Shown here: positions 511-30,641 of the stretch, in pieces
Numbering within the stretch: the stretch's first letter is position 1
How the letters are laid out: each line of letters opens with the position of its first letter
Source of the DNA: Coriobacteriia bacterium
Lineage (GTDB): Bacteria > Actinomycetota > Coriobacteriia > WRKU01 > WQUG01
NCBI GenBank assembly: GCA_009785795.1
Contig: WQVN01000006.1
Span: 1 to 41,618 of the forward strand
Length of the DNA stretch: 41,618 nt
Direction of reading: 5' to 3'
Translations under genes and position numbers: made by a program
The notes under the pieces: model-generated
Told to the model about the DNA's origin: nothing
The model's input: the letters and a program-made list of their open reading frames with translations, nothing else
Databases searched by the model: none

Positions 511-1971
511 TTATTCCCCAGCTGGACGGCGGCGTCTGCGGGGTACTCTGGTCTCGACCTTCTGTGTGGTGTTAGCCTGTTGTTTGCCTTTTCCAGACTG
601 TGAACTGCCACCCTGCCTAGTATTGCTACTGCTGCTTTGTCCATGTTTGTCCTTGCCGCCAGACTTACGTCTGCGACCTTTATTGCGACGATTCGAACGC
701 TTGTGACCAGATCCTTGCTGCTTACCCGCCGAGTTCTCAGATTTTGCATCTTTCTTGTTTTCCTTAGAAGCATCTGAGCGACTGCTATTTTTACCATGAC
801 CAGCGTCACGATTACGACTTCTACGGCTTTTTCGACCCTTGCTACTTCTGTCACGGTGATCATCTGCGGCTTGTTTTCCGTTGTCAACAGCAGCACCATC
901 GCTGGATCTGAGTCCCATATAATTCAAGCCGTCGGTTGAAAGTGATGCACTGCGTGCCTGCTTGCTTTCCTCTTCAAGACGTTCGAATTCTGTTGGCTCG
1001 ATGGCACATGGACGCCCTCCGCAACCATGGTTACTGCCTTTGTCGCCACGGCCGCCCTTACGGTCCCTGCAACACATGCGCGTCAGAGGAACTACCATGC
1101 TGTCACCCTGCTTGTCAGGCTCATCACCTTTAAATTGCAGCTTTACTGTTTCGCGCAGAGCATCAAGTTCAACAACTTTACCACAGCCTCGTGGGGTATC
1201 AATACGTGCACCCTTCTTAGGTGCGCGACGGTTGAAATCTTTGTAGGCCTCAACCTCGTAGCGCAAACAACACATCAAGCGACCACAAACCCCTGAAATC
1301 TTGCTAGGGTTAAGCGGCAATCCCTGCTCTTTTGCCATCCTGATTGACACAGGTTCAAATTCGCCGCCCATCCTGCTGCAGCAGAGTTCTTCACCACAAT
1401 GTCCCAGGCCACCTGCCATACGTGCTTCATCACGCACACCAATCTGGCGCATCTCGATACGACAGTGAAAATGTGCTGCCAAATCACGCACGAGCTGACG
1501 AAAGTCAATCCGTTCCTCTGCCGAAAAGTAAAAAATCATCTTTTCGCGTCCGAACAGAATCTCAATATCAGCTGGCTTCATGTCGATTTCGTTTTTTTCG
1601 ATAAGTTCACGAAATGCAGGAAATGCAGCATGCTCCTCGTCCTGCAGTTCTTTGTCGCAAGCAAGATCATCGTCAGTTGCGATGCGCAATACAGGCTTTA
1701 GAGGTGCAGGAAGTTCACTGTGCAAAATCTCATGGTTGACCAAGGTACAGTCTCCCATTTCTGTTCCCCGCTCAGTAGAAACAATAAGCTTTTGACCAAC
1801 CTGTGGCTCATGTCCACTCGGATCAAACCACAAGGTCTTTGAGTGTCGAAAGCGCACACCGACCACCTGAACAGTGGTATCGTCATCTTTGCTTTTGGCA
1901 GTATGTTTCTTAGCAGCCATCTGCTGCAATTCTGCATCCACTTCTTCAGTATCTTCTATCCCTGGGGACAT
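511..1971 (-). CDS. ricT: PSP1-domain protein (RicT/YaaT family) with a long basic C-terminal tail
   Basis: HCGEELCCSR and SGVCGRLMCCLRYE motifs typical of PSP1/RicT; located next to holB and tmk. Confidence 0.85.
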   Translation of the reverse strand: MSPGIEDTEEVDAELQQMAAKKHTAKSKDDDTTVQVVGVRFRHSKTLWFDPSGHEPQVGQKLIVSTERGTEMGDCTLVNHEILHSELPAPLKPVLRIATDDDLACDKELQDEEHAAFPAFRELIEKNEIDMKPADIEILFGREKMIFYFSAEERIDFRQLVRDLAAHFHCRIEMRQIGVRDEARMAGGLGHCGEELCCSRMGGEFEPVSIRMAKEQGLPLNPSKISGVCGRLMCCLRYEVEAYKDFNRRAPKKGARIDTPRGCGKVVELDALRETVKLQFKGDEPDKQGDSMVVPLTRMCCRDRKGGRGDKGSNHGCGGRPCAIEPTEFERLEEESKQARSASLSTDGLNYMGLRSSDGAAVDNGKQAADDHRDRSSKGRKSRRSRNRDAGHGKNSSRSDASKENKKDAKSENSAGKQQGSGHKRSNRRNKGRRRKSGGKDKHGQSSSSNTRQGGSSQSGKGKQQANTTQKVETRVPRRRRRPAGE

Positions 1972-3110
1972 TCTATGACCTCTCGTAAATCAAAAAGCAG
2001 AGCCTGAACCAGCAATTCAATCGCCACGTTGCTCGCAAGTCGTCTGCGCGCAATCGCAATGCATTCCTGTCCGTGGGCGAGCTTTGCCGGATTAAGTGCT
2101 GCGCCAACACAAGCCTGGCGCAACATGTCAACTGCATCAATATTTATCATGTCTGCATCTTCGGTCTCACTGTTGTTATCTGCAACAATACGTAAGCAGT
2201 CAGCAAGCAAGGTCGAAAACACGGTAAGCACCATCATTGTCTGACGTGTTTCAAACGATGATAGTCTTCTTTCATTATATCGCTCTAGCTGTTTTAATGC
2301 AGAAGCTTCAAGCAATTCTTTGCGCTCGATAAACTCTGCATCCATCACTGCGCGCATCTCTTCGACAGAGTCAAGCGCACTACGTAAAACTTCTCGTGCC
2401 ATGCGCAACACATCTAGATCGTCAGCAGTTTGCAGATCACGAAAAGTACGTATGACCACTTGGCGTGACTCCTGTTGTTTGGGAGAATTCAAATAGTCGC
2501 GAGCTGCTGCCACAATATATCCATTTGCTGCAAGTGCAATATCTGCACGCTGTCCATTGATGCCTGTCTTTGCACTTAAGACTTCACGTGCACGCTGCGG
2601 ACTCAATGGAGAAAAGCGATAAATTTGACAGCGTGACCTGATTGTCGCAAGCACTGCTTCAAGACTTGTTGAAAGAAGGATAAAAATTGTACTGTCTGTT
2701 GGCTCTTCTAGGGTCTTTAGAAAAGCATTTGCCGCGCTGACATTAAATAAATCAACATCGCGAATAACAAAAATCTTGCGACTAGCACGAGCAGGTGCCA
2801 GCTGTACTTGATAATTCAGCTCACGGATTTGCCCAACTAGATAGCCTCCCGCACCTTCTGGTTCAAGGATCTGAAAATCAGGATGCGTATTATTTTCGAG
2901 CTGCGTACAAATCGCGCAGGTACCGCAACCTCTGTCTGCGCACATCAGCTGCGTTGCCACTGCACGTGCTGCATTGATTTTTCCAAGCCCACGCGCACCG
3001 ACAAATAAGTAGGCATGCGTGAGGCTATCTGTCTGCAAGGAGTGCTGCAGAGCACGAACAACACCGTCTTGTCCAATAACCTTATCCCAAAAATGCTTTG
3101 AACAGTCCAT
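1956..3110 (-). CDS. holB: DNA polymerase III delta' subunit
   Basis: AAA+ clamp-loader sequence VGARGLGK, zinc module C-CGTCAIC, AANAFLKTLEEP, SRCQIYRF. Confidence 0.9.
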   Translation of the reverse strand: MDCSKHFWDKVIGQDGVVRALQHSLQTDSLTHAYLFVGARGLGKINAARAVATQLMCADRGCGTCAICTQLENNTHPDFQILEPEGAGGYLVGQIRELNYQVQLAPARASRKIFVIRDVDLFNVSAANAFLKTLEEPTDSTIFILLSTSLEAVLATIRSRCQIYRFSPLSPQRAREVLSAKTGINGQRADIALAANGYIVAAARDYLNSPKQQESRQVVIRTFRDLQTADDLDVLRMAREVLRSALDSVEEMRAVMDAEFIERKELLEASALKQLERYNERRLSSFETRQTMMVLTVFSTLLADCLRIVADNNSETEDADMINIDAVDMLRQACVGAALNPAKLAHGQECIAIARRRLASNVAIELLVQALLFDLREVIECPQG

Positions 3111-4360
3111 TAGTTGTCACACCCCAGCCTGCTGACAAGTTCTTGAATCTGGGCAGCAATGGCTGCCTTACTGCGTGTTGCGTCAAGCACATGAACACGA
3201 TCTGGACAGGCAGCAGCGATCGCACGAAAGCCCTCACGCACGCGCTGATGAAACTCTACATTTTCACGCTCTAGGCGATCAGGAGTACCCGTCTGCGCTG
3301 CGCGCGCCAGACCTTGTTCCGATGGCAAATCGAGCACGATAGTCAAGTCAGGAACAATGTTGCCTGTTGCAAATAAGTTCATCTGCTCGATTTGTTCGAT
3401 ATCAAGTTCACGTCCATAGCCCTGATAGGCAGTGGTCGAATCAGAAAAACGATCACACAGTACGATTGCGCCACGCGCGAGTGCAGGTGCAATCGTTTCT
3501 GACACCAGTTGCGCACGAGCTGCCTGATACAAAAATAACTCACTGCGCGCGCTAAGCTCACTGTTGCCAGCATCAAGCAAAATACTACGAATAGCCTCAC
3601 TAATAGCACTTGAGCCTGGATCACGCAAAGTCAACACCTCATGACCCTTAGTTCGCAAGGATTGCGCAATCAATTCAATCTGAGTTGATTTACCGCAGCC
3701 CTCTCCCCCTTCAAAGGTAATGAAAGTTCCTGTTCTGTGCGATGACTGTCCACAATGGAAGAATTGATTTGGACTACCCTCGTCCCCATCATCGCTACAT
3801 TTTCGATATGCGGCATACACATCCCCACCACAGACATCAATTGCAACAACTGCGGGGAAATCGCGCAGTTCCAGACACTGGACAGCCTCTGTCCCTAAAT
3901 CTGACCAAGCGACAACTTCGCTGCTTATAACATGCTGTGCCAGAATCGCAGCAGCTCCACCAATCGCGGCAAGATATATTGCACCATGTTTACATGATGC
4001 TTGCTTATAGGCATCGCTGCGACCTCCTTTACCTAAGGCTGTCAGCATGCCATGTGGCATCAGCGTAATCTGACCTGCGTCCATGCGCTTCGAGGTGGTT
4101 GGCCCAATCGAGCCAAAGGGTAGTTCTGGAGCACCAGAATGTGCGGGAGTCGGTCCAGCAAAGAAAATTAACTGCCCACTCAGTAGCTTCATCAGTTGCA
4201 AGGCCTCTGCATCGCCTGCTTGCACACTGCGAGTCAAGCGTTCCATCGAAGCATCGCGCAAAGTGTAGCAATTACCACTTAGTAGCAATTCGTCGCCAGC
4301 ACGCATGCTTGCACGTACATCCTCTGACAGAGGTAACTGATATGTCTTTTTCTTATTCAT
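3110..4360 (-). CDS. tmk: Fusion protein: N-terminal class-I fumarate hydratase C-terminal (beta) domain plus C-terminal thymidylate kinase
   Basis: One uninterrupted ORF (track 3110..4393; likely start MNKKKTYQLPL at 4360). N-terminal half has GPTP, GSIGPTTSKRMD, GKGGRSD, AIGGAAAILA, DLGTEA (Fumerase_C). C-terminal half from about 3730 downward has FITFEGGEGCGKST, LCDRFSDSTTAYQGYGR, DRLERENVEFHQRVREGF (thymidylate kinase). Confidence 0.9.
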   Translation of the reverse strand: MNKKKTYQLPLSEDVRASMRAGDELLLSGNCYTLRDASMERLTRSVQAGDAEALQLMKLLSGQLIFFAGPTPAHSGAPELPFGSIGPTTSKRMDAGQITLMPHGMLTALGKGGRSDAYKQASCKHGAIYLAAIGGAAAILAQHVISSEVVAWSDLGTEAVQCLELRDFPAVVAIDVCGGDVYAAYRKCSDDGDEGSPNQFFHCGQSSHRTGTFITFEGGEGCGKSTQIELIAQSLRTKGHEVLTLRDPGSSAISEAIRSILLDAGNSELSARSELFLYQAARAQLVSETIAPALARGAIVLCDRFSDSTTAYQGYGRELDIEQIEQMNLFATGNIVPDLTIVLDLPSEQGLARAAQTGTPDRLERENVEFHQRVREGFRAIAAACPDRVHVLDATRSKAAIAAQIQELVSRLGCDN

Positions 4361-5750
4361 TTCGCTTATTCCAGTATATAGCCTTAAAGGCAAAAGCGGC
4401 AGCTAGTCCAACGACTATTGCAGAAATTGCCATCGTGATGCGTGGCCCTGTTAAGGGCAGATACAAAAATTCGTCGATTCCAACTCGCCCAAGTCCGCGC
4501 CTGAGATAACCGCTAATTGCATCGCTTATTGGCGTCATTATGACTACTGATGTCAACATGGATACCCTCAGTACGCTTTCTGTGGCAGCAAAAACACGTG
4601 CACGCATATCTTCACCAACACTACGCACTATACAGTTCAAGCCACTTAACACAACTCCTGCAGCACACAATCCTCCGGCAACAGCGTATATGCCTGCAAT
4701 AAAGTACTGCTCATTAAAAGCAAAGCCCAGCATGCCTGCAGCAAATATTGCAAGGAACGCAGGAAGCAGTAGTGCTGCATCAAGGCGTGTAGTAAGTCGA
4801 GGCATAATAGCCGCTCCAATTGCGACACCAATTGTTGCAAGAGCTAACATGAATATCTGGCGTGAAGCTGATAAAGCATATATTACATAAAGTGAATCAG
4901 CTAATGGGATACTACCCTTAAGTGATGCAATGTAGCTAAGTCCCACAGGAATGGCAGCTCCTCCACCGACAAGCGCAACAGACAGTGCAATCAGTAGGGT
5001 ACGCAACTGAGGTTTTGTACGCAAAAAGCGAAAAGGTGCGATCGCGTCCCTCGCAAGCCTGCGAATGCTGAGCGGTGGAAGTCTTTCAGAGCTTGGTGCG
5101 CTAGACCTGCGCACAAACAATAGAAGCGCAGCAGAAAATGCAAAGATGAGCACATTAACCGCATGGCCAATACCTGACTGTACAATCAGAGGGCTCCAGT
5201 CAAAAATCATCTGCGCAATATTGGTAATGTCGAGCTCAATCACTCGCATAACAGCCTGTTCGAAGCCACGAACAATGGCTGCTGCCATAACAAGCCCCAT
5301 AACCATGGCAATGCGCTGACTGCCATACATAAATCCATTTGCACGTACACGACTATCTTTTTCTACTATGTCAGCAGTCATAACATTGCGTGCTGGCCAG
5401 TAAAACTGACTTGCTGTTTCCATGAGGAATAGTGCGATATAGATTGCAAGTAACGAATTGCTCAGTAGTAGTACCAGCACCAGCAGCATACGTGCAAGAT
5501 CAGAGCAGAGCATGATTGCACGCTGATTGAAGCGTTTTGCCACTGCGTCTGCAAGCGCAGCAAACAGTAGTGCCGGTACAAGCTTTGCCGCCATAATGCC
5601 AGCCACTGCCATAGAGGATCCGTCCGACATCTGCAAGACTACAGGAATTAGGATGCCAACAATTAGCCAATCCCCTAGAGAAGACAGAAATTGAGCAGTC
5701 CAAAGCCTTCGAAAAGCAGAATTTTTCACAAGGTGGTAATGATCACTCAT
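4353..5750 (-). CDS. MFS transporter
   Basis: 465 aa, about 12 hydrophobic segments; N-terminus NSAFRRLWTAQFLSSLGDWLIVGILIPV is typical of MFS exporters. Confidence 0.8.
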   Translation of the reverse strand: MSDHYHLVKNSAFRRLWTAQFLSSLGDWLIVGILIPVVLQMSDGSSMAVAGIMAAKLVPALLFAALADAVAKRFNQRAIMLCSDLARMLLVLVLLLSNSLLAIYIALFLMETASQFYWPARNVMTADIVEKDSRVRANGFMYGSQRIAMVMGLVMAAAIVRGFEQAVMRVIELDITNIAQMIFDWSPLIVQSGIGHAVNVLIFAFSAALLLFVRRSSAPSSERLPPLSIRRLARDAIAPFRFLRTKPQLRTLLIALSVALVGGGAAIPVGLSYIASLKGSIPLADSLYVIYALSASRQIFMLALATIGVAIGAAIMPRLTTRLDAALLLPAFLAIFAAGMLGFAFNEQYFIAGIYAVAGGLCAAGVVLSGLNCIVRSVGEDMRARVFAATESVLRVSMLTSVVIMTPISDAISGYLRRGLGRVGIDEFLYLPLTGPRITMAISAIVVGLAAAFAFKAIYWNKRNE

Positions 5751-10050: not shown

Positions 10051-11610
10051 TTATGAGCCAGCGAGGAAGGTCATTATAGGATTGTGAAATATTCCAGCGG
10101 CCATCAGTACAACCACTATAAGGACTATAGCTGCAACAGCACAAGGTGAATAGCTGGTTTTTGCGGGATACGACGTCGCAGGTTCAATGTCTGCGTCTGT
10201 AAAAGTAGCTTCTATCTCTGCAGCAAGATTTTGACTATCTGCCATGCCTTCTTTTTCTGCATCAAGTGCATCTGTGACAACGGTCGTCTTCTTCTGAGAC
10301 TCGCCAAAGAAACTTGCGCGGATTAAACGTATGTAATAGAACGCACTTACCACTACCATGACGACAGCAAAGACAAGCAGTGCATACTGCTGGGCTGCTG
10401 CAGTGATCAAAAATACGTTGAGTTTCGCGAAGAAGCCCAAGGTTGGTGGTACGCCAATCATTGATACAGCAATGATTGCAAGTGCCCACGCAGCACCTGG
10501 CCGCCTCTCTGATAAGCCATTCAAGTCAGCGACCATACTGCCCTCGTGTGCGCTGATGAACAGTACACCCATTGTGGCAAAGGCTGCTGCCGCAACATAA
10601 AGTATCGCCGCATTTAGAGCAAACAGTGAGCCATCTAAGCCCATTGCCATCATCGCTATGACAAGCAGAATAAAACCTGCGCTACTAACACCCGAATATG
10701 CCATCATGCGACGAATATTAACTTGCATCAAAGCGGCAAACGATCCGACAATCATGCTAAAAATTGCCATCACCATGAGCATTTCTGCCACCTGTGGAAC
10801 TGGCTGCGAAATAATAAATATGAGACGCGCCAATACCACCGTAACTGCCACCTTTGGCACAACGGCAGCAAACGAGAGTGCCCAAGACTCGGCACCCTCA
10901 TAAGCATCAGGCGCCCACCAGTGAAAGGGTGCAGCCGACATTTTTGCAAACATTCCTAACACCACCATGCCAACAGCTATCAGGGTTAGTGCGTTGTTAG
11001 ACAAGCTTGCAAGTCCTGCAAAAGTCGTGCTTGCAGAAAGCCCCACAAGAAAGCTTGCTCCATAGAGCATAATGAGTGTCGTAAGTACCGAGAGCAAGAA
11101 GTACTTCATCGCACCTTCAAGTCCCTTTATGCGATAACGCCTATATCCCACTAGAACGTAAGAGGGCATAGTCGCCAACTCCAGCGCTAAAATAATGACA
11201 ATGATGTCAGTAGCGGCAACCGCAATTACTGCGCCAATGGCTGATAGCATAGCAAAAGCAACAGCTTCGCGCGTGCGTCCCAGACCACCATTCTGCCCAG
11301 AACCAAAGGTCCACAGGCACCACAGTGCGGCAAGTAGACAGATTATGACTGCCGCAAACCGAGCGTCAGGCGTAAAGAAATAGCGTCCGCCAAAGAGCAA
11401 TGCGCCTGGCACAGAAAATCCATAACACAGCGTAGCAAGAACCGAGCAAGCCAATCCTACTAATGATGCTCCGCGGTCTTTGCCAGGCAATAGATTGGCA
11501 AATAGTGCCCAAAAGGCTGCTATCAGCAGCAACGCAATAGGCAGCAGTATTCCATAGCCTTGAAAGGGTGGCAGGAAACTGCTTACAATATCTGTTTGAC
11601 CCACAACCAT
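10051..11610 (-). CDS. nuoN: NADH-quinone oxidoreductase subunit N
   Basis: Proton-translocating antiporter-like membrane protein in nuo gene order; LELATMPSYVLVGYRR, MKYFLLSVLTT, MAYSGVSSAGFIL. Confidence 0.93.
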   Translation of the reverse strand: MVVGQTDIVSSFLPPFQGYGILLPIALLLIAAFWALFANLLPGKDRGASLVGLACSVLATLCYGFSVPGALLFGGRYFFTPDARFAAVIICLLAALWCLWTFGSGQNGGLGRTREAVAFAMLSAIGAVIAVAATDIIVIILALELATMPSYVLVGYRRYRIKGLEGAMKYFLLSVLTTLIMLYGASFLVGLSASTTFAGLASLSNNALTLIAVGMVVLGMFAKMSAAPFHWWAPDAYEGAESWALSFAAVVPKVAVTVVLARLIFIISQPVPQVAEMLMVMAIFSMIVGSFAALMQVNIRRMMAYSGVSSAGFILLVIAMMAMGLDGSLFALNAAILYVAAAAFATMGVLFISAHEGSMVADLNGLSERRPGAAWALAIIAVSMIGVPPTLGFFAKLNVFLITAAAQQYALLVFAVVMVVVSAFYYIRLIRASFFGESQKKTTVVTDALDAEKEGMADSQNLAAEIEATFTDADIEPATSYPAKTSYSPCAVAAIVLIVVVLMAAGIFHNPIMTFLAGS

Positions 11611-11616
11611 CAGTAA

Positions 11617-13104
11617 CTATGCCCCAAATATCCGCGCAAGATCAGTTGCAAAGGGATCAGTGAACTGTAAAATCGTGTTCCAATATACGCCAATAACAAC
11701 AATCATCACTGTGATAGGTGCAAGAACTGCAATCTCGCGCAGGTTAAGATCCTTTTGACCTGCAACTTTTTCTGATGGTTCACCAAAGATGCTACGCTGC
11801 ATTAACCACAGCATATAGGCACCACCGCAAAGGATGCCAATACCTGCAAGAATGGTAAGAACAGGTGGCAGTGCAGGGCTCTCCCATGAGCTCAGAATAG
11901 AGAGAAATTCTCCGACAAACCCAGAAAGAAGCGGCAAGCCCATGCTGGCAAAAGATGCTAAGCAGAAAAACCCTGCAAAGCGCGGCATCTGTGCTGCGAT
12001 GCCCGACAATTCAGATATTCGCAGTGTTTTTGTTCGTTCATAAATCATGCCAACCATGAAGAATAGCATGCCTGTTGTCAGTCCGTGACTGATATTCACT
12101 GCCATTGCCGCATTAAAACCAGTTGCTGTACCTGCAGCAATACCCAGCATGGCAAAGCCCATGTGACTGACAGAACTGTAGGCAACAAGCTTTTTGATAT
12201 CGGTCTGTGCAAAGGCAACAATTGCGCCATACAAAATCGATATTACTGCAAGGATTCCCAGCGTCAACTGCCAAGTCTCAAAAGCGTCAGGCAATATAGG
12301 CACTGATATGCGCAAGAATGCGTAAGTTCCCATCTTTAGCATGACGCCTGCAAGCAGCACACTTGCGGCTGTTGGTGCCTGTACATGTGCATCAGGTAGC
12401 CAAGTATGCAGCGGAAACACAGGTACCTTTACTGCCAATGCCAGGAAGAATGCAAGGAATATCCACCACTGCAGTGACCATAGGCCGCCTTCTCCTGCAA
12501 AGGCAATCGGTGCAAGCTCGCGCAGCTCGACCATGTTAAATGACCCTGTCATGATGAACAGTGCCACAATTCCTACCAGCATGAACACTGAGCCCAAGAA
12601 CGTGTACAAGAAAAACTTCATGGCAGCATAGCGTCTGCGTGCTCCACCCCACTGAGAAATGAGGAAGAACATGGGAACAAGGACAATCTCCCAAAAGACA
12701 TAGAACAGTACCAAGTCCAGAGCGGCAAAGACACCTGTTAGTCCCATCGACAGTAACAGTAACATGGAAAAATACAGGCGTGGCTTGACATCAATCTTCC
12801 AACTGGCAACAACTGCGAGCATAAACAGGAATGTAGAAAGCATCACTAATGGAAAGGACAAGCCATCAAGTCCCACATGATAATTTACGTTAATCTGCGG
12901 TATCCAGGCAATTTTTTGCTCGAGCTGCATCCCATCAGCACGACCGTAAGCAATAACCATCCAGGTGGTCAATGCAAAGTTTGCCACCGTGATTACCAGT
13001 GCAGCCCATTTTGCATAGAGCTCGTAGCGTTTTGGCAGCAGTGCTATAGCAAGCACGCCAACCAGGGGCAAGAAAATGATGAGCGAAAGCATGAACGAAG
13101 GCAT
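11617..13104 (-). CDS. nuoM: NADH-quinone oxidoreductase subunit M
   Basis: FHVGLDGLSFPLVMLSTFL-like segment, FPLHTWLPDAHVQAPTAASVLLAGVMLKMGTYAFLR, KKLVAYSSVSHMGF; start refined to MPSFMLSL. Confidence 0.94.
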   Translation of the reverse strand: MPSFMLSLIIFLPLVGVLAIALLPKRYELYAKWAALVITVANFALTTWMVIAYGRADGMQLEQKIAWIPQINVNYHVGLDGLSFPLVMLSTFLFMLAVVASWKIDVKPRLYFSMLLLLSMGLTGVFAALDLVLFYVFWEIVLVPMFFLISQWGGARRRYAAMKFFLYTFLGSVFMLVGIVALFIMTGSFNMVELRELAPIAFAGEGGLWSLQWWIFLAFFLALAVKVPVFPLHTWLPDAHVQAPTAASVLLAGVMLKMGTYAFLRISVPILPDAFETWQLTLGILAVISILYGAIVAFAQTDIKKLVAYSSVSHMGFAMLGIAAGTATGFNAAMAVNISHGLTTGMLFFMVGMIYERTKTLRISELSGIAAQMPRFAGFFCLASFASMGLPLLSGFVGEFLSILSSWESPALPPVLTILAGIGILCGGAYMLWLMQRSIFGEPSEKVAGQKDLNLREIAVLAPITVMIVVIGVYWNTILQFTDPFATDLARIFGA

Positions 13105-13109
13105 GATTC

Positions 13110-15341
13110 TTATAGTCCTCTCAACACAAACACAATTACAAATGCAGCTAACAATACTATTCCAGCGCCTAACATCAGACGTTGATACCACTGAACTTCA
13201 CCACTTTGAACGGTGCGTAGACGTCCTCCTATAATGACAGATAATTGTCCGAGCCCATTAACAAAACCGTCAATGACGCGCACATCGAAAATACGTGCAA
13301 GGCGTGATGACAGAACAAAGCTCCAGCTAGCGCCGTTAACAATGCCATCAATTATATGGTCATCGAACCATTTTGCAGCGCGTGTTTTGGCAACATATAT
13401 CCAAGATATGCCATTTACTGCACCGTCTATGACACGCACATCAAATATGTAAGAAAGACGTGCAAACTGTTGATACAGCCAGGTCACACCATCAACTGCA
13501 CTGTCAAGTATTTGTACATCCAGGCGCCACAGGGCATAGGATAGCCAAAAGTAAGGTCTAATTATTACATGTTGATACAAAGCATTCAGATAGGTATCTG
13601 CTGCTATTGCTGCAGATGCAGTAGCATATGACGGTCTGGCAAAAGTCGTTTTGAGTTGTGTGCGATATGCGTATGCCAGAAAGCCCATACTTGCACCAAA
13701 GACCATTACACCTGTTGATATAGCAACCATGTACAGGGGTGGCCAACCAGCAGGATAGCCCAAGAACACGCCCAGCGGGATAACAGCAAGCCCCGTTACT
13801 GCTGCTAATACCGCAAGAACCGCTATGGGAACAGTTTCTAGTGTGCTTGCGTCGCGCGCATTAGCACTGCCCTCTGTTTGCGGCTTGCCAAAAAAGATTG
13901 TGAACCAAGATTTGAAAACATAGAATGCGGTGAGTGCGCCTGCAATTGCTATTCCCGCAAAGGCCAGATAATTACCTGTGTCATGTCCATGATGTAGCAG
14001 AGCTTTAAATATTTCGTCTTTTGAGAAAAATCCAGAGAGTGGCACTACACCTGCAAGTGCAAAAGCACCAATGCTAAAACTTGCAAACGTTACGGGCATA
14101 CGTTTCGCAAGACCACCCATTTCCTGCATATATTTTGTACCAGTGGCAGCAATGATGGCACCTGCCGCAAGGAACAACAGTGCCTTGAAGAAAGCGTGAG
14201 TTATCGTATGAAAGGCTGCGACAAAGCCAGCACCAACCCCAAGTGCTGCAAACAGAAAGCCTAACTGGCTAATGGTAGAAAATGCAAGAACCCTTTTGAG
14301 TTCTTTTTGAAAGCAGGCAAGCAGACCACCATACAGAGCAGTAATCACGCCTACGGCAAGAATGATGTTCATTGCAAGCGGATACAGAGTCAGCACAGGC
14401 AACATGCGCAGCAGTAAAAACACACCGGCTACAACCATAGTCGCTGCATGAATCAGTGCAGAACCAGAAGTCGGACCCGCCATTGCATCTGGCAGCCAAA
14501 TTGACATTGGAAACTGTGCAGATTTGCCAATTGCTGCCCATATTAACCCCAGGCAGACAACAGCAAGCAGGAATGGTGACCAACTAGCTGCAGTAGCAAA
14601 AATTTGGCTAAGCTCAAAGGACTGTGCCGCCACAAAAATTGCAGACAATGCAATAAAGAATCCTACGTCTCCTGCACGCGTGACAAGGAATGCCTTTTGT
14701 GAGGCCTGGCGTGGAGCTTTGTTGCGATACCAAAACCCAATAAGGAAATATGAACACACGCCCATAATCTCCCATAGAGCAAACTGTAGCAAAATATTGC
14801 CCGAGAGCACAAAACCCAGCATTGCCGCAAGAAATAACGACATGATGCAGTAGAACCAACCAATGCGCTCATCATCTTTCATGTAATGAAGTGAATATAT
14901 CTGAACGCACAGACCAACAATAGACACCATTAGCAGCATTATGACTGCAAGAGAATCAACCGCAAGTGACAGGGTCAGCGGAATTGCGCCTATGTGACCC
15001 AGAGTCCACTGCAGGGTATAAAATGCCTCGTTAACGGGGCCGCCTGGCCAGATTGCAATCGCAGCAGCAACAGCGATAAAGAAACTCATTGTTAGGCAGG
15101 CAATGGGAACATAGCGCAAAGTTTTACGTAGTTCACGCGGCAAGCAAATCAGCAGCGCAAATCCGAAAAATGGGAACAAGGGTGCCAGTGCAACCCACCA
15201 TAAATTAAGTTGCGGCACCCATGATGTTACGGGTGCCAGTGCATTTGTAAAAATCATACCATCAAACGAATATGATCCTGGTAAGCACGCTATGGCTGTT
15301 GCTATGTTTGCTACTTCTAGCACAATCCCTTTTAAGCCCAT
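13110..15341 (-). CDS. nuoL: NADH-quinone oxidoreductase subunit L with four tandem 26-aa repeats near the C-terminus
   Basis: FALWEIMGVCSYFLIGFWY, WLPDAMAGPTSGSALIHAATMVVAGVFLL, KRVLAFSTISQLGF; C-terminal FDVRVIDGAVNG repeats. Confidence 0.94.
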   Translation of the reverse strand: MGLKGIVLEVANIATAIACLPGSYSFDGMIFTNALAPVTSWVPQLNLWWVALAPLFPFFGFALLICLPRELRKTLRYVPIACLTMSFFIAVAAAIAIWPGGPVNEAFYTLQWTLGHIGAIPLTLSLAVDSLAVIMLLMVSIVGLCVQIYSLHYMKDDERIGWFYCIMSLFLAAMLGFVLSGNILLQFALWEIMGVCSYFLIGFWYRNKAPRQASQKAFLVTRAGDVGFFIALSAIFVAAQSFELSQIFATAASWSPFLLAVVCLGLIWAAIGKSAQFPMSIWLPDAMAGPTSGSALIHAATMVVAGVFLLLRMLPVLTLYPLAMNIILAVGVITALYGGLLACFQKELKRVLAFSTISQLGFLFAALGVGAGFVAAFHTITHAFFKALLFLAAGAIIAATGTKYMQEMGGLAKRMPVTFASFSIGAFALAGVVPLSGFFSKDEIFKALLHHGHDTGNYLAFAGIAIAGALTAFYVFKSWFTIFFGKPQTEGSANARDASTLETVPIAVLAVLAAVTGLAVIPLGVFLGYPAGWPPLYMVAISTGVMVFGASMGFLAYAYRTQLKTTFARPSYATASAAIAADTYLNALYQHVIIRPYFWLSYALWRLDVQILDSAVDGVTWLYQQFARLSYIFDVRVIDGAVNGISWIYVAKTRAAKWFDDHIIDGIVNGASWSFVLSSRLARIFDVRVIDGFVNGLGQLSVIIGGRLRTVQSGEVQWYQRLMLGAGIVLLAAFVIVFVLRGL
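13212..13523 (-). repeat. Four tandem 78-nt/26-aa coding repeats in nuoL
   Basis: LDVQILDSAVDGVTWLYQQFARLSYI / FDVRVIDGAVNGISWIYVAKTRAAKW / FDDHIIDGIVNGASWSFVLSSRLARI / FDVRVIDGFVNGLGQLSVIIGGRLRT; same 26-residue spacing throughout. Confidence 0.85.
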
Positions 15342-15364
15342 CCTATCCTATTACTAATCTGCTG

Positions 15365-15679
15365 CTAGCCCTTGAGTTCGCGCAAATCTTCAACTTTACT
15401 GGTTCGTGCACGACGGTACAATGCTACAACCAGCGATAGTCCAATTGCTATTTCAGCGGCACCCAACACCATGATAAATATTATGAAAAACCAGGCATGG
15501 GGCTGTGCGCCAGGCACAAATCGTGCCAAAGCAACCAAGTTCAGCGTAATGGCAAAAAGCATAATTTCAAGCGACATCAAGATGCTTACCGCAGCTTTGC
15601 GCGATATTGCACCATAGAGCCCAACCGAGAACAATGTTGCCGAAAACAGGAGTGCTGTGACTAATCCAACTTCAGGCAT
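15365..15679 (-). CDS. nuoK: NADH-quinone oxidoreductase subunit K
   Basis: MPEVGLVTALLFSATLFSVGLYGAISRKAAVSILMSLEIMLFAITLN; position in nuo order. Confidence 0.93.
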   Translation of the reverse strand: MPEVGLVTALLFSATLFSVGLYGAISRKAAVSILMSLEIMLFAITLNLVALARFVPGAQPHAWFFIIFIMVLGAAEIAIGLSLVVALYRRARTSKVEDLRELKG

Positions 15680-16310
15680 GGCTGTCCTCCTGTCCCTCTG
15701 CTGACTGTTGTTCCTTCTTTTCATCTCTGAGTGGAGCATTTAGCGTAGCCGAATGCTCAGACAAAGGATCTTCAATACGAGCTGCTTTGTCTTTTGCAAT
15801 GCGCTCACCATCGAGATCACTGTCTTTGCTCCACCAGACTGCTGCAATCAGAGCCGCCAACAACACCAGGGATGCAATTTCAAAGGCAAAAGCATGACCA
15901 TCAATTGCGAAAAGCTCTGCACCAAAGTCTGCCAATTCCATTGGCTCCTGTGCAGTGGTAAAGGCTGCCAATTCAGGAGTCATGATGATTCCATAGGCAA
16001 CCAGTCCCAAAAAAGCGAGTGACAGAATCACCGCAGATACGGACAACTTTGACTCTGTGCAAGCACTCTCGTAGGAACGATGTGTTACCATGACGGTAAA
16101 AATGGTGAGGATGCTGACAGCACCTGCATAAAGCAGCAATTGGGTGACAGCTAGATATTCTGCACCCATAAACCAGGTCATGCCTGCAACTCCAATTGCG
16201 CAAAGCAGCAGCCAGTATGCGCCATGTATGACGTTTTCTGCACTGATGCAATTAATGGCTGCAACAAGGATGACAAAGCCTAGAACACTAAATGCTACTG
16301 CACTAAGCAT
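15672..16310 (-). CDS. nuoJ: NADH-quinone oxidoreductase subunit J
   Basis: FMGAEYLAVTQLLLYAGAVSILTIFTVMV; between nuoI and nuoK. Confidence 0.92.
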   Translation of the reverse strand: MLSAVAFSVLGFVILVAAINCISAENVIHGAYWLLLCAIGVAGMTWFMGAEYLAVTQLLLYAGAVSILTIFTVMVTHRSYESACTESKLSVSAVILSLAFLGLVAYGIIMTPELAAFTTAQEPMELADFGAELFAIDGHAFAFEIASLVLLAALIAAVWWSKDSDLDGERIAKDKAARIEDPLSEHSATLNAPLRDEKKEQQSAEGQEDSHA

Positions 16311-16797
16311 CGCTTGCCTCCTTTTTTGCTGCAGTTGCAGGACGTGGCTTCTTTGGACGTCTGTAGGCAGGAACATCTACCAGTAAGTCCAATTCAAGTA
16401 ATTCTGGATCTACGTGAGCAAGTTCATAGTCGTGCGCCATCTTGATTGCACAGAAAGGACAGACTTCAACGCATAGACCGCACATCATACATCCTCCACG
16501 ACGATAGAGCCAGCGATTAATATGTCTGCTGCGGTCTTCTGCAACAGTGATGTCAATCTCAATCAGGTCATCAGGACACTCCTTCTCGCAAACCCTGCAA
16601 GCAGTACAACGATGTGTGCCGTCTTCAGAAGCGTAATTGATTTCGACTGCCCAACGTGCGCGCTGCGGAATTTCAAGTCGTTCCTTAGGATACTGCACTG
16701 TTATGGGACGTCTAAATAGATTCTTAAACGCAATGCGCAGCGACAGGAATATGCCGAGGGGTATGCGGCGCTCTTTCTCGTTAAACATGCGGCTCAT
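16303..16797 (-). CDS. nuoI: NADH-quinone oxidoreductase subunit I (two [4Fe-4S] motifs)
   Basis: CTACRVCEKECP and CMMCGLCVEVCP; start refined to MSRMFNEKERR. Confidence 0.93.
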   Translation of the reverse strand: MSRMFNEKERRIPLGIFLSLRIAFKNLFRRPITVQYPKERLEIPQRARWAVEINYASEDGTHRCTACRVCEKECPDDLIEIDITVAEDRSRHINRWLYRRGGCMMCGLCVEVCPFCAIKMAHDYELAHVDPELLELDLLVDVPAYRRPKKPRPATAAKKEASDA

Positions 16798-16801
16798 TGT
16801 G

Positions 16802-17800
16802 CTAAGCACCTGCCCCAAAAAGCGTTTGTACCGCGCGCAATCCTATCGCAAACACTAATACCCAAATAAGAGTAAAAGGAATGAGTCTTTTCCATCCCAA
16901 TGCTGCCATTTTGTCTACACGATAACGTGAGAAATTCCCGCGTACCATCATAAACAAAAATATGATGATGTAGGATTTAATTATCAGCACCATGGGAGCA
17001 AAAATGCCCATCGAATGTGGATCAATGCCTGGCAGTGTCCAACCACCAAAAAACAAGGTTACGGCAAGTGCTGCCATAACAAAGTTGCCTGCAAATTCTG
17101 CAAGGAATATAAAGCCAAAACGCATGGCAGAATATTCAGTTGAAAAACCTGCGACCAGCTCGCTTTCTGCCTCTGTCATATCAAAAGGAGCCTGATTGGT
17201 TTCCATTTGCGCACAAATCAAAAAGATGACTGCTGATGGCAGTGCAGGGATGACAAACCAGAAACCGTTTGCCTGTGCCAGAACGATTTCGGACAGATTC
17301 ATGCTACCTGCAAGCATAATTGGTGGCAAAACCGACAGCAGCAATGGTATCTCAAAGGTAATCGCAGCACCAACAGATCTAACTGCGCCAATCAGTGCAT
17401 ACTTATTATGGCTCGCCCACCCTGCAGCAAATACCCCCAGAGGAACTAAAGTCAGAAAGGCCAGAATCATCATGACGCCCATATTCACATTTGCAGCCAC
17501 CATCGTAGGGCCAAAGGGAATAAAGGCAAAAGCTGTCAGCATGGGCACAAATATAATGATCGGTGCCAAGCAGTACAGCCCCTTGTCGGAAAAATTCGGA
17601 TGGCGGTCTTCTTTCGTCAGCAGCTTAATGACATCAGGAACGAGCTGTAAAATTCCTGCAGGACCTAAGGTATTTGGCCCAATGCGCAAGTGAGCTGCTG
17701 CAAGAACTTTGCGCAACATGTAAATGATAGATGCGCCACTGACCATCATAATGGTGACAACAAAGAGCATCCATAAAAGTGCTTGCAACCAGACATTCAT
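16802..17800 (-). CDS. nuoH: NADH-quinone oxidoreductase subunit H
   Basis: RIGPNTLGPAGILQLVPDVIKLLTKED, APFDMTEAESELVAGFSTEYSAMRFGFIFLAEF. Confidence 0.95.
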   Translation of the reverse strand: MNVWLQALLWMLFVVTIMMVSGASIIYMLRKVLAAAHLRIGPNTLGPAGILQLVPDVIKLLTKEDRHPNFSDKGLYCLAPIIIFVPMLTAFAFIPFGPTMVAANVNMGVMMILAFLTLVPLGVFAAGWASHNKYALIGAVRSVGAAITFEIPLLLSVLPPIMLAGSMNLSEIVLAQANGFWFVIPALPSAVIFLICAQMETNQAPFDMTEAESELVAGFSTEYSAMRFGFIFLAEFAGNFVMAALAVTLFFGGWTLPGIDPHSMGIFAPMVLIIKSYIIIFLFMMVRGNFSRYRVDKMAALGWKRLIPFTLIWVLVFAIGLRAVQTLFGAGA

Positions 17801-19077
17801 TAGCGATCAACCTCGCCAAAGCAAAAATCAAATGACCCCATGCCCACTATTGCATCTGCAAACATCATATTGGGCAACAAGATTTCAGCTATCCCCAAAG
17901 AGTAGAGCGTCGGTGGACGATAGCGCATGCGCACAGGCTTATCACTGCCATCTGAATACAGGTGGATACCCACTTCTCCACGCGCAGATTCGACAATCCC
18001 ACAGGCCTCGCCTTCTGGCACACGAAGAACTTTGGGCATTTTTGCTTTAATGTCACCCGGTGGCATGCCATCTAAACATTGCTCAATAATGCGCAGCGAT
18101 TGACGAATTTCATCAAAGCGACAGGTAACACGGTCAAATACGTCACCACCTGTTCGAGTCATAACATCAAAGTCAAACTGATCGTAAGCATCGTAGGGAC
18201 GATCACGACGCACATCAAAATCTATGCCAGATGCACGTAGCACGTGACCCGTTGCACCATAGTTCAGTGCATCATCTGCGCTCAGCACTCCAATGCCTTT
18301 TGTACGTATTTGAAAAAGCTCAGATTCGAATAGGCTATCCCAGTGCTCTTCCATGCGCTCAATGCCAATTTTCAGATAATCTCGCAGCAGCTTTTCTGCG
18401 CGAGGCGTGAGGTCACCCGTAACTCTGCCAGGACGCACATAGTTAAACATTAGACGCTGTCCTGTCATTTCTTCAAGCACGTCAATGAACAGTTCACGAT
18501 CTTTTTGCATGTACAGGAATATCCCCATCGCGCCACTATCAAGTCCCATGGGACCTATCCACATGTAGTGGCTGGCAATACGATTGACCTCTGCCATCAA
18601 GCAGCGCAACCACTGAGCACGCGGAGGCACTTCAATCTCTGCAAGTTGTTCTGTCGCAAGAGCAGCAGCAGTCTCCACGGTAATGCCAGACACATAGTCT
18701 GCGCGATCAACGAGAGTTGCCAGCTGGTGATAGCGACGATGTTCTGCAAGTTTTTCAATGCCGCGATGCAGTTGCCCCACATGAGCTTCACCAGACATGA
18801 TACGCTCGCCATCCATTTCTAAGATAACGCGTAGCGCGCCATGCGTTGACGGATGCTGAGGTCCAACATTTAACAAGTAATGATCTGTGGATAGTTGCAG
18901 CGGATCATCTGCAATGCGACGCGTATTGCGCGGCACAACGATTCCTGCAGGTGGCTGCGGCGATAACCAGCCAGGATTAGTATATCCCTCTAACATATCT
19001 TCTTGTAGAGAGGCTTCGTCCTCACAAGGAACTACGGGTGTCAGCAGTGCTTCTGATGGCTTTTTACCTATCCCCAT
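17800..19077 (-). CDS. nuoD: NADH-quinone oxidoreductase subunit D with N-terminal extension
   Basis: NVGPQHPSTHGALR, RPGRVTGDLTPRAEKL, DPVA-type C-terminal region; nuo gene order. Confidence 0.94.
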   Translation of the reverse strand: MGIGKKPSEALLTPVVPCEDEASLQEDMLEGYTNPGWLSPQPPAGIVVPRNTRRIADDPLQLSTDHYLLNVGPQHPSTHGALRVILEMDGERIMSGEAHVGQLHRGIEKLAEHRRYHQLATLVDRADYVSGITVETAAALATEQLAEIEVPPRAQWLRCLMAEVNRIASHYMWIGPMGLDSGAMGIFLYMQKDRELFIDVLEEMTGQRLMFNYVRPGRVTGDLTPRAEKLLRDYLKIGIERMEEHWDSLFESELFQIRTKGIGVLSADDALNYGATGHVLRASGIDFDVRRDRPYDAYDQFDFDVMTRTGGDVFDRVTCRFDEIRQSLRIIEQCLDGMPPGDIKAKMPKVLRVPEGEACGIVESARGEVGIHLYSDGSDKPVRMRYRPPTLYSLGIAEILLPNMMFADAIVGMGSFDFCFGEVDR

Positions 19078-19547
19078 ATCTCCTCCTTTGTGCGAATCGC
19101 AGTACTTTTACGCAGAAAAGGAGGCATTCCCTCTATTGTTAATAGTCGCTTAGGATTGGAATGTCCGTGCAGAGTCAGTCCATACATCTCGCACAGTTCA
19201 CGCTCTGGCAGCAGTGCAGATGCAAAGACGTGCCCAACAGACTGATAGTCGCCATCATAGGGCAACTCGCATTTGATAATTAGGTCAACGTTGTGTCTGA
19301 GCGAGCGCAATCGATACGTAACCTCGATTAAATCACGAATGTCTGCTCCGAAAAGATCAATCAACTGCACGAATTGCAAATCACTGTCTTTGCGAAGTGC
19401 GTCCAGCACTAACATAACTTGCGCTGCAGGCAGTCGCATAACGACACCCAGATTGTCATCCGCATCAATCTGATAGTCCCAGGAATCAGTGACACCTGTG
19501 GTGTCAAGTGCCGTGGCAATGCATTCTGTCAGCGTGGCGGGATTCAT
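19068..19547 (-). CDS. nuoC: NADH-quinone oxidoreductase subunit C
   Basis: LPERELCEMYGLTLHGHSNPKRLLTIEGMPPFLRKS; between nuoB and nuoD. Confidence 0.9.
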   Translation of the reverse strand: MNPATLTECIATALDTTGVTDSWDYQIDADDNLGVVMRLPAAQVMLVLDALRKDSDLQFVQLIDLFGADIRDLIEVTYRLRSLRHNVDLIIKCELPYDGDYQSVGHVFASALLPERELCEMYGLTLHGHSNPKRLLTIEGMPPFLRKSTAIRTKEEIWG

Positions 19548-20221
19548 TTTTGGACGCTCTCTGCCGCTTTATCGGAACTATTGGAACGCACAAACTCTGC
19601 AGAGTTTTCGCACTTTGATGCACGGGGTGCGCCATATTCAGGAACGTTTTCAATTCCTGGCAGCGGAATGGGAACTTTCACCCTACCTACAGGTTTTGGA
19701 TCTGGCGGAACAAGCCCTGCTTGCCAGCGTGCACGTTCGGCAAGACGCTCATCAGTCTGTGCATAAATTTTTTCGCGAAGCTGCAGAAATGCATACTGAA
19801 TCGATTCGGGACGCGGAGGACAACCTGGCACATAAATGTCAACAGGAACGATTTCATTCACGCCTTCAATAACATTGGGATATGCGCGAAAGGGGCCACC
19901 TGTGTTGGCGCATGCTCCCAGCGAAATAACATACTTTGGTTCCTGCATTTGCTCATATAGGCGCTTTACCACAGGTGCCATCTTATAATTGACAGTTCCT
20001 GCCACTATCATGACATCTGACTGGCGGGGTACTCCACGGAAGAAAACACCGTGACGATCAAAGTCAAAGCGAGGACCAGATGCAGCAAGCAGCCCCTCAA
20101 GTGAACAGCAGGCAATGCCGAAAGCCTGATACCACAGGCTGCGCGCACGTGCCCAGTCAAACAGTTGCTCTGAACGTATAAAAGCAAGAGAGTGTTCGCC
20201 AAATGCTTTGTCTAGTGCCAA
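19544..20221 (-). CDS. nuoB: NADH-quinone oxidoreductase subunit B
   Basis: FGIACCSLE, PRQSDVMIVAGTVNYKMAPVVKRLYEQM, SLGACANTGG, VPGCPPRPE. Confidence 0.96.
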   Translation of the reverse strand: MALDKAFGEHSLAFIRSEQLFDWARARSLWYQAFGIACCSLEGLLAASGPRFDFDRHGVFFRGVPRQSDVMIVAGTVNYKMAPVVKRLYEQMQEPKYVISLGACANTGGPFRAYPNVIEGVNEIVPVDIYVPGCPPRPESIQYAFLQLREKIYAQTDERLAERARWQAGLVPPDPKPVGRVKVPIPLPGIENVPEYGAPRASKCENSAEFVRSNSSDKAAESVQK

Positions 20222-20571
20222 TTCAGCGCACCTTCTTTCCAGGCATATGCAAGTCCTATCAGAAGGATTGTGACAAAAACAACCATTTCAATGATGATGA
20301 ACCAGCCAGTGACAGCACTTCCTGCAGCGATTGCCCAAGGGAACAGAAAGATAACCTCAATATCAAAGATTACAAATAGGATTGCATAGACAAAATATCC
20401 AGGTCTAAAGCGAACCCAGGGGCGTCCAATAGGCTCTACCCCACATTCATACGTCAAACCTTTGTCTTTTGTAGGTTTTGTGGGTGAAAGCAGCCAGGAA
20501 AGGCTCAAAACCAGGCAGGCAAACGCAGCCCCTGCAATGATAAAAACTGCTATAACTACCTGTTCAAACAT
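20212..20571 (-). CDS. nuoA: NADH-quinone oxidoreductase subunit A
   Basis: TYECGVEPIGRPWVRFRPGYFVYAILFVIFDIEVIFLFPWA. Confidence 0.96.
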   Translation of the reverse strand: MFEQVVIAVFIIAGAAFACLVLSLSWLLSPTKPTKDKGLTYECGVEPIGRPWVRFRPGYFVYAILFVIFDIEVIFLFPWAIAAGSAVTGWFIIIEMVVFVTILLIGLAYAWKEGALNWH

Positions 20572-28238: not shown

Positions 28239-29438
28239 TTATCTGGTTAAATCAACAATGAGAGTTTCGCCAAAGGTGGGTGAATATACAATCACATCAT
28301 TGTCGCCTTGCCATGACAGATAAATGTCCATCTCGGGACCAAAGGTTTGATTGTCCATATGCAGGGTAATGCGATACCACTCCGCATCAATGCGTTCTTC
28401 CACCATGTTCATGCTTAGCCTGTCAAATTCCCATATATCATCGACGGTAATCACTTCAGCACTAAAGTAGCCCTCAAGAAACACGCTGTTTGTTCGATGA
28501 CTCACATCAAGGTAGTGAGTGAATGTTCTGTTCGAATTGAAAACAAAGAACTCTCCATCCCCATTGAAATCGTGGCGAGAGAACGTACCATCAAATCCGG
28601 TGTACATCGCTATTGCTTCGTATTCGCCAACAATAGCTTCAAGTATTGCTGGATCGATTTCGCTGCTATCTGAAGGAATCCCCGGCGAATCTGAATCCTG
28701 CGCAACGTCAGGTGCTTGCTCTGTGAACCTCTCTTCTTCCAGTGTTGTCACATTAAAGTCTGCATTAAAGATCTCAAGGAAATCATTTCCGCACATAGCT
28801 ACTGGAGCCACGCAGCAAAGCAGTAAAAACGTAAGAACTCCCGCCACAATTGCCACAATTCCCCACGTAGGAATTTTCTTCTTTTTTGGCTGATGCGCAA
28901 GATCTGGAAAAAGACTGGGTGATGATGCAACCTGTGGAAATGCCCCTGATGTAGCTGGTACAGATGTAGTACCTTGCGAAAATACATTTGGCGCAGACGT
29001 CACATCTTGTTGGGGAGCGGCTGCTGTTGCAGGTATCGCTTGATGCGAAAAGTCTGCGGCTGTAGACGTACTTCCCACAGCACTCATATCTGTAGGTACA
29101 GCTTGAATCGAATCTGCAGGTACAGCCTGCACCGCATCCATCCCAGCATCTAAGGGAGCAGGCTGAACGGGCGTCTCTTGCAATGGCACAGGAACAGGTA
29201 TAGGCGCAGGCGCGCTTGTCTGATCAAGTGCTGCGAGCTTCGCGTTAACCCTGTCTTCGAGTGATTGTGGCTCTGCTGACGGTGCCTGTTCATTGCTGTT
29301 AATAGTTGTGGTAGCGCCTACATCAGGTGTGGACTGCTCTACAGTCAGTGCCTGTTCTGCACTTTCTACTGGCGCACCGCAGCTCGTACAAAACTTGCCG
29401 CCCGGCACAATATCACTTCTACATTGCGTACACTGCAT
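28239..29438 (-). CDS. Zinc-ribbon single-TM membrane protein (paralogue 1)
   Basis: MQCTQCRSDIVPGGKFCTSCG zinc ribbon; low-complexity linker; TM IPTWGIVAIVAGVLTFLLLCCVAPV; extracytoplasmic IDPAILEAIVGEYEAI domain. Confidence 0.85.
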   Translation of the reverse strand: MQCTQCRSDIVPGGKFCTSCGAPVESAEQALTVEQSTPDVGATTTINSNEQAPSAEPQSLEDRVNAKLAALDQTSAPAPIPVPVPLQETPVQPAPLDAGMDAVQAVPADSIQAVPTDMSAVGSTSTAADFSHQAIPATAAAPQQDVTSAPNVFSQGTTSVPATSGAFPQVASSPSLFPDLAHQPKKKKIPTWGIVAIVAGVLTFLLLCCVAPVAMCGNDFLEIFNADFNVTTLEEERFTEQAPDVAQDSDSPGIPSDSSEIDPAILEAIVGEYEAIAMYTGFDGTFSRHDFNGDGEFFVFNSNRTFTHYLDVSHRTNSVFLEGYFSAEVITVDDIWEFDRLSMNMVEERIDAEWYRITLHMDNQTFGPEMDIYLSWQGDNDVIVYSPTFGETLIVDLTR

Positions 29439-29600: not shown

Positions 29601-30641
29601 CTACGGAGTAGTGCGCTCAACAACAGAAGTCTGTCCGAAGGTCGTTTGATAAATGATTATGTCATCAGGATCTGCAATCGACATAATCAGATTATTCTCA
29701 TAAAGAACTTCAGAATCCCAGACGTGAAACAAGGTCAAATGGTACCAGTCAGACGTAGCTCGATCGTCAACAAAAAGCATGAAGGATCGATCAAAAGAAT
29801 TGACATAGTTACTCAGATTGTCAAAGTCTATCTGAGTAACAGAAAATACGCCTTCATCCCAAGGATGATCTCTGCGGTCAGCCTCGGCAATTGTGAAAGT
29901 TAAATCTGCATTAAACGTATAGTATTCGCCACGACCATTATGCTCTGTGCGACGGGCAGTATCAGCATTATCGCCTTCATAGCTCACGATCTCTTCATAT
30001 TCGCCAACAATAACTTCAAGTACTGCAGGGTCAATATCAACATCTGCAAGAATATCTTCTACGTCAATTTCCTGAAGGCTTGATCCGCCCAGTATTCCTG
30101 GATCGCCAAATGTTGACTGGCCCTGAAGATCTTGTTCCAATTCTTGAAAGACCAAAACTGCTGGAACGATACAGCACGCAGCAATCAAAAGCAGAACGCC
30201 CACAACAATTGCTACAATCCCCCACGTAGGAAGTCCTTTCTTTTTTGGCTGATGTACAGGGCTCTGAAAAGGGCTGGCTGATGATGCAGATTGCGGAAAT
30301 GCTCCCAATGGAGATGTTCCACTTTGCTGAAAGCTTCCAGCAGTAGGTGCACCCTGTGATGATTCGATAACGGGGGGCAAGCCCTGCACAGAACCTATGT
30401 TGTCTGGAACATTACGTGCAGTCCCAGGCATTGATGCAGATGTCTGTTCAAGTGCCGCAAGTTTTGCATTGACCTTCTCTTCAAGTGATTGTGGTTCTGA
30501 TGATAAGGTCTGTCCGTCATTTGTTGCAGCACCTACATCTACGTTGACCAGAGGCTGTCCTGCATCCTGCACTGCTGTGCCACAAGCAGTGCAAAAATTG
30601 TTGTCTGGTGCAATATTTTTTCTACATTGTATACACTGCAT
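29601..30641 (-). CDS. Zinc-ribbon single-TM membrane protein (paralogue 2)
   Basis: MQCIQCRKNIAPDNNFCTACG; KKKGLPTWGIVAIVVGVLLLIAACC; IDPAVLEVIVGEYEEI; same architecture as 28239..29438. Confidence 0.85.
   Translation of the reverse strand: MQCIQCRKNIAPDNNFCTACGTAVQDAGQPLVNVDVGAATNDGQTLSSEPQSLEEKVNAKLAALEQTSASMPGTARNVPDNIGSVQGLPPVIESSQGAPTAGSFQQSGTSPLGAFPQSASSASPFQSPVHQPKKKGLPTWGIVAIVVGVLLLIAACCIVPAVLVFQELEQDLQGQSTFGDPGILGGSSLQEIDVEDILADVDIDPAVLEVIVGEYEEIVSYEGDNADTARRTEHNGRGEYYTFNADLTFTIAEADRRDHPWDEGVFSVTQIDFDNLSNYVNSFDRSFMLFVDDRATSDWYHLTLFHVWDSEVLYENNLIMSIADPDDIIIYQTTFGQTSVVERTTP

Follow-up and report, generated by a model that had tools for sequence, protein, structure and literature searches.

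Class I ([4Fe-4S]) fumarases have been described both as two-subunit and as single-chain enzymes. In the two-subunit form (Pelotomaculum MmcBC type; solved pair 7xky) the alpha subunit, with its three cysteines, is encoded separately from beta, while in the single-chain form (E. coli FumA/FumB; Leishmania fumarase 2, 5l2r) the beta domain is joined to alpha. Bacterial dTMP kinases (Tmk; 4edh, 3hjn, 4tmk) are a second well-characterized family, and fusions of such a kinase to an MFS-type transporter are presumably already named bifunctional in databases.

Here we analysed a stretch of 41,618 nucleotides from a Coriobacteriia bacterium (hereafter the window) in which a fumarase beta domain and a dTMP kinase share one reading frame. 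With the MmcBC type this protein has in common a full beta domain, the catalytic R, T, T, R and K residues and a separately encoded alpha carrying three cysteines; it differs in that its beta bears a C-terminal kinase and that alpha no longer adjoins beta in the window's genome. With the single-chain enzymes it shares the same alpha/beta domains and the same active site, but its beta is joined to dTMP kinase and its alpha is free. Compared with ordinary Tmk, the kinase domain is complete and an N-terminal fumarase beta domain and linker have been added. The MFS-dTMP kinase fusions are alike in that the kinase is joined at its N-terminus to a relative of another gene of the same cluster, although there the partner is a transporter rather than a fumarase beta domain. 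Both enzyme families are known; the novelty lies in their being combined, in the recurrence of this fusion and in its descent from an old gene cluster. No description of such a fusion was found among open-licence PMC papers; it seems to be undescribed so far.

A fumarase beta domain and a dTMP kinase in one frame

The minus strand from 4360 (ATG) to 3110 (stop) forms a single uninterrupted frame of 416 amino acids. Pfam Fumerase_C matched residues 17-183 (positions 3812..4312; 2.5e-37, 128.7 bits against a cut-off of 22.2, profile 41-203 of 205) and Thymidylate_kin matched residues 216-405 (5.2e-43, 147.3 bits against a cut-off of 27, profile 1-185 of 185), placing the kinase domain at residues 211-405 (3146..3730) behind a linker of residues 184-210 (3731..3811). 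The kinase assignment was corroborated by NCBIfam dTMP_kinase TIGR00041 (169.6 bits against a cut-off of 83.25). Frame and domain searches thus bear out the earlier proposal of a beta domain and a full thymidylate kinase in one open reading frame, and all of the fumarase motifs that it listed are present. Sequencing or assembly error was considered and ruled out by the recurrence of a stop-free fusion in seven of 401 Coriobacteriia genomes. The beta-kinase fusion is real.

To characterize the beta half, its sequence was compared with Leishmania fumarase 2, for which the beta-side active-site residues have been listed (PMC10602362). Residues R421, T467, T468, R471 and K491 of the Leishmania enzyme align with R35, T88, T89, R92 and K111 of the fusion, and these five positions are invariant across all seven fusions, whose beta domains are 40-70% identical to that of the window. 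The NCBIfam match of the beta half is to the FumA/TtdB beta family, below the curated cut-offs (NF005310, 150.1 against 238; TIGR00723, 122.7 against 145.15), so that, judged by sequence, the hydro-lyase may act on fumarate, tartrate or mesaconate.

The kinase half retains the P-loop FEGGEGxGKST, the DR motif and the DRLE motif in the alignment of the seven fusions. Within this alignment, position 247 is aspartate in the window's protein and glutamate in the other six. Kinase identity to the window's domain ranges from 54 to 69% among the fusions, and the Pseudomonas dTMP kinase is 47% identical over 202 columns. Superposition on solved dTMP kinases gave target-normalised TM-scores mostly >0.9.

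Between these two halves the linker is unconserved, with only 4-16% identity to the window's linker among the fusions. AlphaFold2 returned a mean pLDDT of 92.4 for the full chain, with both domains mostly >90, residues 190-202 at <50 and a pTM of 0.60. This is the kind of model expected if two functional domains are joined by a loose tether, residues 190-202 being predicted as disordered and the relative placement of the domains not being predicted. In a fusion that arose separately (G363, locus L043), the linker contains a short direct repeat (MGSAPNVTKVAMGSAPNVTTVEMG), which may be a record of how that linker grew.

Distribution and origin of the fusion

The earlier suggestion of a taxonomic survey was followed up across the class, and the architecture was found to recur, the seven fused genomes falling into three clades and including termite-gut Coriobacteriia. 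Besides the window's genome, five genomes of its order (G008, G009, G010, G001 and G002) carry a stop-free fusion, and an additional one (G011) probably has the same fusion split by contig ends. Beta and tmk are separate neighbours in four genomes of the window's family (G003, G004, G005, G006) and in one of another family (G012), while in G014 alpha adjoins beta and tmk lies elsewhere. Among the best matches in the 401 genomes there are 20 further loci where tmk follows beta in frame but one or more stops separate the two. A sample of 150 genomes from the phylum yielded no further beta-tmk fusion; adjacency of the two genes was seen in other families.

Outgroup Actinomycetota (L073, L088, L091 and L122) have the gene order alpha, MFS-like gene, beta, tmk, and in three of these four loci the next genes are holB- and ricT-like, as judged from their starts. 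This alpha-MFS-beta-tmk cluster goes back a long way in deep Actinomycetota, where beta and tmk are mostly separate genes lying side by side. In a tree of 47 beta and tmk pairs the fusions occupy three clades, requiring at least three changes. A single origin was rejected by AU tests, as a constraint uniting all seven fusions gave p-AU 9e-11 and one uniting the two groups within the window's order gave p-AU 7e-5. On the tree alone, three fusions and fewer fusions with later splits are indistinguishable; separate genes were taken as the ancestral state because they are separate in the outgroup and in 40 of the 47 pairs, and on this basis the fusion apparently arose three separate times.

Other members of the cluster have also merged. 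Some Eggerthellaceae-type relatives encode alpha and beta in one frame (L066, L071, L075), and many other members of the Actinomycetota encode the dTMP kinase within frames of roughly 620-1100 amino acids. In five of six such frames examined (L148, L149, L151, L152, L153) the N-terminal half resembles the MFS neighbour of the window's fusion (22-33% identity), and both of the MFS-kinase frames tested matched NCBIfam TIGR00900, as does that neighbour. We infer that these MFS-kinase fusions derive from the same alpha-MFS-beta-tmk cluster, and that neighbouring genes of a single cluster appear to have been joined in differing pairs from lineage to lineage. Because MFS is joined to tmk in other Actinomycetota, gene order and not chemistry seems to determine the partner of the kinase. 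The alpha-beta, MFS-kinase and beta-kinase pairs of one old cluster, found in different lineages, make up a natural fusion series, suggesting that gene order can set fusion partners and that caution is needed when function is inferred from fusions.

The candidate alpha partner and the probable function of the fused protein

A beta domain of this type would need an alpha subunit, and the first-pass annotation had proposed that one may be encoded elsewhere. The search of the window's genome supports this pairing at the level of sequence: the assembly (856 kb, 60% complete) contains one alpha match, on another contig (C17:11371-12222), and one Fumerase_C match, which is the fusion gene itself. 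Thymidylate_kin likewise matched once, again in the fusion gene; at 60% completeness a second beta or kinase could be absent from the assembly, and in the near-complete fused genomes G002 (98%) and G001 (96%) the whole-protein match is also single. The alpha retains the cluster cysteines C66, C201 and C288, with Q67 and D68 directly after the first of them, together with the active-site arginine R107 and histidine H276. Alpha is present in 14 of the 15 genomes of the order, in several of them a few kb upstream of beta, and relatives keep it at the tmk cluster, unlike the window's genome. There it lies away from that cluster, directly after a malic-enzyme-like gene called by eye (L001 266-2403).

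A class II fumarase, which would make the beta half redundant, was also sought and this candidate was rejected, as none scored over the curated cut-off in any genome of the order; the weak class II matches are presumably other lyases of the same superfamily. Given a single beta, a motif-complete alpha and the failure of any class II fumarase to pass the cut-off, it is very likely that the fused beta makes up half of the one fumarase found. Annotation by a single domain would conceal half of this fumarase, and the alpha would look like an orphan.

These observations are best accommodated by a bifunctional chain, a reading to which we assign a probability of roughly 0.82. The fusion would have originated when two adjacent genes of an operon lost the stop codon separating them. 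Its N-terminal half would serve as beta in a two-subunit class I fumarase, docking with the separate cluster-bearing alpha to form the cell's fumarase, and its C-terminal half would be the cell's dTMP kinase, functioning in the usual way on a flexible tether, with one such kinase attached to every beta. Both activities would be present, alpha and beta-kinase would assemble, and the tether would impose no special regulation. Class I fumarases and dTMP kinases are commonly dimeric, making an alpha2(beta-kinase)2 assembly plausible.

It was also considered whether the single frame yields two proteins, either by initiation of the kinase at an internal start or by cleavage of the chain within the linker. 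In-frame ATG or GTG codons do occur in the linkers of G002, G363 and G001. However, the linkers of G008 and G010 contain no ATG, GTG or TTG between the domains, and the linker region of the window's fusion has no in-frame ATG, its nearest possible start being a sole GTG (codon 181) that precedes the TFEGG motif of the kinase by 34 codons and lacks a Shine-Dalgarno-like stretch, much as had been noted at first reading. Nor is any cleavage motif conserved, the linker being only 4-16% identical. Production of two proteins is accordingly very unlikely, and the earlier view that separate translation of the kinase is improbable gains support from the G008 and G010 linkers.

The remaining alternatives concern what the beta half does. 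It might control the attached kinase as a C4-dicarboxylate sensor or regulator, coupling central metabolism, or a role of fumarase in DNA damage, to dTTP supply. The appearance of the fusion in three clades and the age of a neighbourhood containing tmk and holB would fit such a role, as would the finding that the response of B. subtilis to DNA damage involves fumarase and malate (PMC5711358). Such a link, if regulatory, would tie C4 metabolism to DNA precursors. Against this, the catalytic residues of beta are kept, an alpha partner is present, no second beta that could take over catalysis was found in the window's genome (60% complete), the linker is unconserved and partly disordered, and elsewhere in the Actinomycetota the kinase is joined to a transporter instead. 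The sensor proposal of the first-pass annotation is consequently not supported and we regard it as unlikely; of the earlier interpretation, the single product and the alpha encoded elsewhere are the parts that gain support. It is just as doubtful that the tether itself is functional, with malate/fumarate turnover taking place at, or controlled by, DNA-precursor synthesis, for instance within a DNA damage function of fumarase, and selection for this explaining the three origins. Alternatively, the beta half could be a passive remnant in a lineage whose fumarase has been lost or is non-functional, with only the kinase at work. That alpha has left the cluster in the genome of the window would agree with this, but the beta domains have held to 40-70% identity with all tested active-site residues in place, the motifs of alpha are kept and no other fumarase scored over cut-off, making a remnant the least probable of these readings and highly improbable in itself.

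Genes flanking the fusion

The beta-kinase fusion is encoded within a compact run of minus-strand genes. Directly upstream lies the MFS transporter gene (4353..5750; NCBIfam TIGR00900), a member of the old cluster, and downstream follow the holB-like gene for DNA polymerase III delta' (1956..3110) and ricT, of the RicT/PSP1 family (511..1971). The gene ends overlap by 8 bases between MFS and fusion, by 1 base between the fusion stop and the holB start and by 16 bases between holB and ricT, suggesting that MFS, fusion, holB and ricT are translationally coupled. A P-type ATPase is encoded beyond the MFS gene (8557-5831, minus strand).

Further along the minus strand, positions 10051-20571 hold a Complex I-type operon comprising nuoN, M, L, a nuoK-like frame, J, I, H, D, C, B and a nuoA-like frame; the NADH-module genes nuoE, F and G were not found beside it within the window. 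Two tandem related proteins, neither with a Pfam or NCBIfam match, are encoded at 28239-29438 and 29601-30641 (minus strand). Each opens with a zinc-ribbon-like CxxC..CxxC and continues through a stretch of low complexity and a single hydrophobic segment to a C-terminal domain.
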